Origin: Halalkalibacter suaedae
GTDB taxonomy: Bacteria > Bacillota > Bacilli > Bacillales > Bacillaceae_D
Assembly (NCBI RefSeq): GCF_017939705.1
Contig: NZ_JAGKSQ010000002.1
Span: forward strand, 434,001 to 498,000
Direction of reading: 5' to 3'
DNA length: 64,000 nt
Shown here: positions 694 through 1,584 of the stretch, in pieces
Layout of the letters: every line of letters begins with the position of its first letter
Position numbering within the stretch: position 1 is the stretch's first letter
Translations under genes and position numbers: made by a program
Notes under the pieces: generated by a model
Databases searched by the model: none
The model's input: the letters and a program-made list of their open reading frames with translations, nothing else
Told to the model about the DNA's origin: nothing

Positions 694-843
694 GAATATC
701 ACTCTCCTGATTTAAGTCTAGTAATAATTTACCCTCTCTCAAGAATCGTAAACACAAAGTCTTTTTGATTTCTAAGCAATTTATTGGACTGAACCGAGAC
801 ATGCTAGGTATACTACAATAGAAAATGAAATGGAGGTATGATG

Positions 844-1548
844 ATGTTAATTGAAATGTGGACAGACTTTTCTTGACCTTTTTGCTATATTGGCAAAAAG
901 CGTCTGGAGGACGCTATCAAAGAAATTGAACACCCTATTGAAGTAGTCTACCGTAGCTTTGAGTTAGACCCAAATGCTGAAAGAGATATTAACTATAGCA
1001 TGTATGAGAAGCTTGCACAGAAATACGGAATGAGCATAGAAACAGCTAAATCTAACTGTGACAATATGGTCCAAATGGCCAAGACTGTTGGATTAGACTA
1101 TAAGTTCGATACACTTATTTTAACGAATACCTTTGATGCACATCGTCTGGTTATGTATGCAAAGACTCAAGGGAAAATGCAAGAAATGACAGATCGCATT
1201 TTATATGCCTACTATACCGAATCAAAGCATATTGGAGATCATGAGACATTAATTCAGCTTGCTAAAGAGATTGGATTAGATACAAAGACTGTGTCAGAAT
1301 TGCTTGCAAGTGATGAAATGAGTAAAGAGGTTCGTCAAGATGAGCAAGAAGCAGCTGAACTTGGTATTAACAGCATTCCGTTTTTCTTAATTAATCGAAA
1401 ATACTCCATTACAGGGGCACAATCTGCTGAGACGATCAAACAAGGAATTGAGCAAATCATTAAAACAGATGGTCCTTTTATCAATTTAGATGGTCAAGAA
1501 GATGCAGCAGTTTGTGATGAAAATGGTTGTGAAATTCCTAAAAAGTAG
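844..1548 (+). CDS. FrnE-type DsbA family protein with in-frame TGA at the first CxxC cysteine (candidate selenoprotein or nonsense allele)
   Basis: Reading from ATG 844 gives MLIEMWTDFS, then TGA (874-876), then PFCYIGKKRL and an open frame to 1548, 234 codons in all. FrnE-like DsbA oxidoreductases have DF(S/V)CPFCYIGK here, so the TGA replaces exactly the nucleophilic cysteine of CPFC. The rest is intact, including a cis-proline loop (INSIPFFLINRKY) and the usual family length, with no other stop or frameshift. GGAGG at 832-836 is correctly spaced for ATG 844, and a TATACT -10-like box lies at 809-814. Without readthrough the next ATG (1000) would give a 182-residue product lacking the whole active site. 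TGA could be read as selenocysteine (see hairpins at 878-915), be a recent nonsense mutation, or be a sequencing error. The family call is secure; the decoding is open. Confidence 0.8.
878..915 (+). promoter_or_regulatory. SECIS-like hairpins just downstream of the TGA codon
   Basis: Two perfect hairpins follow TGA 874-876. The first is CTTTTTGC (878-885) with GCAAAAAG (893-900). The second is AGCGTC (899-904) with GACGCT (910-915), apical loop TGGAG. They share two bases, so they would compete. The second has a 6-bp stem, a loop beginning 28 bases after TGA and a G in the first two loop positions. As I recall them, those are the published geometric limits for bacterial SECIS elements. Folding is seen in the sequence; function is inference. 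Confidence 0.4.
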
Positions 1549-1553
1549 CAAGA

Positions 1554-1584
1554 AACACACCGCTTTCAGGCGGTGTGTTTTTTT
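1554..1584 (+). terminator. Intrinsic terminator of the FrnE-like gene
   Basis: ACACACCGC (1555-1563) pairs with GCGGTGTGT (1570-1578), followed by a T run. It begins 6 bases after the stop at 1548, which supports the full frame as one transcription unit. Confidence 0.9.

Follow-up and report, generated by a model that had tools for sequence, protein, structure and literature searches.

The gene at positions 844 to 1548 of the window, which is the whole 64,000-nucleotide stretch of Halalkalibacter suaedae DNA that was analysed, raises the question of whether a TGA codon within its reading frame ends translation or specifies selenocysteine (Sec). The frame, MLIEMWTDFS-TGA-PFCYIGKK...EIPKK-TAG, comprises 233 sense codons, a single TGA as codon 11, and a terminal TAG stop. 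The gene and its signals are as follows.

832..836, forward strand: ribosome binding site GGAGG, 7 nt before the ATG at 844, read from the sequence
844..1548, forward strand: predicted Sec-FrnE coding sequence of 234 residues with Sec as residue 11 (U11); UPFC active site (U11, C14); C-terminal CX4C (C224, C229)
874..876, forward strand: UGA codon predicted to encode selenocysteine as the nucleophile; 67 genomes have TGA in this column
about 1555..1584, forward strand: terminator-like inverted repeat with a T run, read by eye from the sequence

A sequence-only reading had described a TGA at the nucleophilic Cys of an FrnE-type DsbA protein, in a frame otherwise free of lesions, with a well-spaced ribosome binding site and a terminator right after the gene. 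Each part of this description was borne out. The TGA is the sole internal stop and falls on the first Cys of the CPFC motif of an FrnE-type DsbA protein. The Pfam DSBA domain covers residues 3 to 201 of the readthrough protein (143.9 bits; cut-off, 25.6). Among solved structures, it best matched 5cnw and other chains that bear the name FrnE protein (E value, 1.2e-51; near whole-length), which we take to be the Deinococcus radiodurans protein. In the alignment with these chains the TGA lies opposite the first Cys of CPWC, and CDENGC, the C-terminal CX4C of the window protein (residues 224 to 229), lies opposite a CX4C. The CP(W/F)C active site of the FrnE subfamily is thus present as UPFC, with Sec replacing the first Cys. 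Three consecutive ATG codons, at 838, 841, and 844, provide several possible starts. Single-sequence structure prediction was too poor for use (pLDDT, 39). Membership in the Rcas_1661 thioredoxin-like (seleno)lipoprotein family (NCBIfam NF041057) was considered and rejected, as the match was confined to residues 118 to 204 and scored 37.1 bits, far under the cut-off of 190.

The sequence-only reading had suggested a search of the genome for selA, selB, selD, and the tRNA-Sec gene (selC). In 14 control genomes, tRNA-Sec, selB, and selD each gave a match at an E value of 0.001 in all 14 and selA did so in 4; because control genomes match at this level too, machinery was counted only above curated cut-offs. 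All four components were present above them in the source genome, on a single contig (C29): tRNA-Sec at 92663 to 92755 (60.2 bits; gathering cut-off, 47), also found by ARAGORN with anticodon TCA; selB at 93079 to 94938 (358.8 bits; cut-off, 242.25); selD at 98676 to 99605 (407.4 bits; cut-off, 125), which contains a single internal TGA; and selA at 100046 to 101404 (562 bits; cut-off, 267.9). A formate dehydrogenase match in this genome was under the cut-off and had no internal stop. Sec-FrnE is a second selenoprotein candidate of the source genome, besides SelD.

The region of the sel cluster between selB and selD (L022:11941-15522, on C29) holds further genes. A GT4 glycosyltransferase gene overlaps the end of selB, and its product has sub-cut-off matches to Glyco4_Geo_Pelo and to the selenosugar synthase SenB. 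The same region encodes a PhnD/PhnE/PhnC-type ABC importer, the substrate-binding protein of which has a sub-cut-off match to the 'putative selenate' family TIGR04553. The glycosyltransferase and the three importer genes all recur in the sel stretch of six of the six genus members fetched. Selenium uptake is a candidate function for the importer, and some glycosyl step a candidate role for the glycosyltransferase.

Orthologues were compared within the genus (13 genomes), an order-wide sample (397 genomes), and a class-wide sample (398 genomes). Within the genus, TGA-containing FrnE orthologues were found in the source genome and six others. FrnE matches at 1e-40 were present in 312 order-sample genomes, and 150 rows were listed. 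The best 53 of the listed rows, which span 14 family codes and have at least 56% identity, carry an internal TGA, at the U11 column in all 53; this count of at least 53 of 397 genomes rests on the matches listed, and more distant Sec proteins may exist. Class-wide, FrnE matches at 1e-75 were found in 14 genomes. Nine of the 14 come from beyond the order, and a TGA is present in eight of the nine, each time at the U11 column. TGA was read at this column in 67 genomes, the source genome included (53 + 6 + 8), and TGT or TGC in all 33 rows with Cys. The alternation of Cys and TGA codons that the sequence-only reading had proposed to look for among homologues was thus seen. The 68 TGA rows referred to below are the 67 FrnE genomes plus L037, a distinct DsbA protein.

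In the order sample selA was above the cut-off in 181 of 397 genomes. All 53 TGA genomes among the matches listed have selA, as do 42 of the 97 other listed genomes, most of which were not read at the U11 column. Therefore, selA does not force Sec in FrnE. The probability of the co-occurrence of TGA-FrnE and selA was 7e-21, a figure that ignores the relatedness of the genomes.

Several other TGA-containing frames were rejected as Sec-FrnE. Five order-search matches of 46 to 51% identity (L129 to L133) have TGT at the column and their TGA elsewhere. A contig scan for the U-P-F/W-C motif, with a pattern spaced one base short (9 rather than 10 free bases ahead of the Leu codon), had a single hit (L070), which gave no alignment at the column (score, 39) and was taken as chance. 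Two further TGA-joined frames found by scanning the window were read as ordinary adjacent genes. As for conserved neighbours, the two proteins flanking Sec-FrnE in the window had no match in 44 loci with about 1.5 kb of flanking sequence.

If the UGA is decoded as Sec, RNA just downstream of it would be expected to carry a bacterial SECIS element. Two hairpins were considered.

900..914, forward strand: predicted bacterial SECIS hairpin GCGUC-UGGAG-GACGC; stem 900-904/910-914, loop 905-909; 24 to 38 nt after the UGA
879..899, forward strand: possible upstream helper hairpin UUUUUGC / GCAAAAA, 879-885 with 893-899; weak; sequence conserved

According to the portion available of PMC13188914, the bacterial SECIS model comprises a stem of 4 to 16 bp, a loop of 3 to 9 nt with a G in its first two positions, a UGA-to-loop distance of 16 to 37 nt, and an energy clause. 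The 900-914 hairpin has a 5-bp stem, the loop UGGAG, and a spacing of 28 nt, in agreement with the stem, loop, G, and spacing parts of the model. Among the 67 sequences (51 distinct; L037 left out of the hairpin columns), 98.4% of cells were paired, compared with 18 to 62% for slid-partner controls. Two pairs show changes on both sides: G-C to A-U at columns 29/39 (L031, L120, L123) and U-A to G-C at columns 30/38 (L127, L128). None of 500 shuffles reached the covariation score of the hairpin or its number of cells with both-side changes; 15 of 500 reached the number of pairs with such changes and 123 of 500 the number of further pair types. The slid controls at -2 and +1 also have both-side changes, with a covariation score that is higher (-2) or equal (+1), but only 37% and 18% of their cells are paired. 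A first covariation count, on 36 rows and both hairpins together, was reached by 55 of 500 shuffles. No covariation was seen in the upstream hairpin, one pair of which is broken in 11 of the 51 distinct rows. A first minimum-free-energy fold with a different pairing through the UGA was set aside, as the alignment-based fold and the 67-row count favour the 900-914 hairpin. The GG of its apical loop presumably resembles that of the E. coli formate dehydrogenase SECIS.

The hairpin pattern fits 61 of the 68 TGA rows and none of the 33 Cys rows. The seven TGA rows off the pattern are L037, which has its own hairpin, L116 to L118 (internal G-G mismatch), L124 (wobble), and L127 and L128 (changed pairs). 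The stem scan was passed by 65 of the 68 TGA rows; L116 to L118 failed because of the mismatch within the stem. Over the 45 nt that follow the codon, the mean folding energy was -13.8 kcal/mol in the 68 TGA rows versus -5.3 kcal/mol in the 33 Cys rows. With its compensatory changes, the 900-914 element may be of use for training SECIS predictors.

Codon choice provided a further view of the same RNA, and the most constrained codons of the gene are those around the UGA. In the 67 genes Leu21 is always CTG, whereas CTG is never the leading codon at ten other conserved Leu positions, where the most frequent codon accounts for 26 to 68%. Gly17 is GGC in 96% (other Gly columns, 30 to 54%) and Arg20 is CGT in 97% (other Arg columns, 27 to 56%). 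All 67 use TGC for Cys14, for which there is no second conserved Cys column for comparison. Because synonymous codons are frozen at the hairpin and free elsewhere in the gene, this pattern after the UGA points to selection on the RNA. Codons before the UGA are frozen as well, which the hairpin does not account for: Glu4 is GAA in 96%, and, among rows with Ala at residue 10, the codon immediately before the UGA (871-873) is GCT in 95% versus 32 to 56% in other Ala columns. The window itself has TCT (Ser) at this position. The freezing of this codon is possibly a UGA-context effect.

These findings bear on three explanations that do not involve selenium. If the TGA were a nonsense mutation or a sequencing error, the frame would represent either a defective FrnE gene or an artefact. 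TGA is one base change away from the TGT or TGC found in every Cys row, as such an event would produce, but its recurrence in this one column across 67 genomes makes sequencing error very unlikely, and the constraint on the downstream RNA further argues against mutation or error, to which we give next to no credence. The UGA could also be a genuine stop, with the protein starting at an internal ATG (position 1000); the product would be a truncated DsbA of 182 residues that lacks the active site. The frame from 1000 to 1548 is indeed open. In each of the 53 listed TGA rows, nevertheless, the orthologue match starts within query residues 1 to 3, and the strongest codon constraint of the gene surrounds the UGA; a start at position 1000 is thus very improbable.

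The third explanation is plain readthrough, or insertion of Cys or Trp at the UGA. UGA is a leaky stop when C comes next, and the frozen codon before the UGA would suit such a mechanism. It does not account for the presence of selA in every listed TGA genome of the order sample, nor for the finding that the sole Cys orthologue nested among the Sec proteins comes from a genome in which neither selA nor tRNA-Sec scores over the cut-off. Together with the agreement of the hairpin with the SECIS model in spacing, stem, and loop, these observations leave only a very small likelihood for decoding of the UGA without selenium. Therefore, we conclude that the product of 844-1548 is very probably an FrnE-type thiol-disulfide oxidoreductase of the DsbA fold, predicted to be cytoplasmic, with selenocysteine as the predicted nucleophilic residue. 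The codon, the machinery, the SECIS-type hairpin, the conservation, the grouping of the Sec rows, and the Cys orthologue whose genome lacks selA and tRNA-Sec over the cut-off, on which this conclusion is based, are all computed. This evidence from sequence strongly supports the selenoprotein reading, and the candidate proposed in the sequence-only reading gains from the sel genes and tRNA-Sec, the alternation of Cys and TGA, and the compensatory changes of the hairpin.

The history of the Sec residue was examined with trees that left out L037 and L038, which are other DsbA proteins. With the Sec column masked, 99 proteins gave a tree in which a branch with support of 97/97 sets the 67 Sec rows, together with one Cys row, apart from all others; an earlier tree of 59 rows placed 36 Sec rows and the same Cys row (L030) together (support, 100/100). 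L030 comes from genome G005 and has the Sec row L031 as its sister (support, 100/99). G005 is the only one of the 13 genus members without selA over the cut-off (best match, 49.6 bits) and without tRNA-Sec over the cut-off, as would be expected if the Sec of L030 had reverted to Cys. Parsimony gives two Sec/Cys changes; the count alone does not fix their direction, and the tree was rooted at its midpoint. The simplest account is that Sec arose once in the FrnE subfamily and that Cys returned once, with loss of the machinery. L031 and L030 form a natural Sec/Cys pair with which to study the benefit of selenium to a DsbA-fold enzyme. In two other genomes, G011 (L067, L144) and G006 (L068), the selA match is split into two adjacent pieces, and in G011 selB is split too, although G011 keeps a TGA FrnE. 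The split genes reflect either assembly errors or Sec machinery under loss, beside G005, the genome of the sister protein.

Documented Sec-to-Cys reversals are primarily limited to the FdhA and SelD families, according to the available part of PMC13188914. A broader interpretation, which we offer tentatively and rate somewhat below an even chance, is that Sec-FrnE is a subfamily of single origin that holds Sec across much of the Bacillales and slightly beyond, that cytoplasmic disulfide repair depends on selenium where there is no Cys paralogue, that the UGA and SECIS act as a selenium-status switch, and that the Cys form in G005 is a reversal outside FdhA and SelD. The source genome has one FrnE match at an E value of 0.001, with no close Cys copy found as a fallback under selenium shortage.

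We infer actual Sec insertion, the catalytic roles, the substrates, and the cellular location of Sec-FrnE. In the proposed mechanism the hairpin would recruit SelB carrying Sec-tRNASec, and the ribosome would then decode the UGA as Sec; without this recruitment translation would yield only ten residues. As the nucleophile, the Sec of UPFC would react with substrate disulfides, C14 would act as the resolver, and the C-terminal CX4C might regenerate the active site by analogy with Deinococcus FrnE. FrnE proteins are predicted cytoplasmic thiol oxidoreductases, and the CX4C of the D. radiodurans protein has been proposed to regenerate its active site (PMC8945050, section 2.4). That protein (DR_0659) shares the CPxC position and the C-terminal CX4C with the window protein but has Cys rather than Sec at the nucleophile. 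By pattern, CX4C occurs in 55 of the 68 TGA rows and 29 of the 33 Cys rows. The 13 TGA rows without it include L126, which has CX5C, and L072 (genome G303), in which an in-frame TAG besides the TGA stops the reading frame short of the tail. Because of these 13 rows, a CX4C relay would not be universal, and some species would need another reductant.

DsbA-like UxxC selenoproteins (PF01323) are an established predicted family in the available portions of PMC13188914, PMC9312934, PMC2398784, PMC1794560, and PMC5029168. Four are given in the part available of PMC1794560, which also counts three selenoproteins in Bacillales with families not named there, and the corresponding table entry in PMC5029168 lists 45 proteins in 41 organisms. 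The window protein has the Pfam domain and UxxC motif of this family. Where the available descriptions name no subfamily, the proteins analysed here are FrnE-type, usually with CX4C, and come from 14 family codes of the order; they may overlap with the earlier lists, unnamed in their tables. A literature search for FrnE together with selenoprotein found no Sec-FrnE in the text it covered, and the supplementary tables of PMC5029168, outside that search, might hold cases; PMC12013277 contained no occurrence of DsbA, FrnE, or Bacill. Thus, Sec-FrnE appears to be a well-supported FrnE-type addition to the known DsbA-like UxxC selenoproteins, spread through the order to which the window belongs. 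As in the E. coli formate dehydrogenase system (available part of PMC13188914), the UGA is accompanied by a hairpin just downstream. A gene caller that takes the UGA as a stop would truncate or drop the gene and lose the active site of a redox enzyme.

Genome G007 encodes another DsbA-family protein, distinct from FrnE, whose UPFC motif likewise has TGA as its first codon (L037:1501-2133). Its hairpin, AGCGGA[GTT]TCCGCT, has a loop that begins 20 nt after the UGA, and the FrnE proper of the same genome has Cys.
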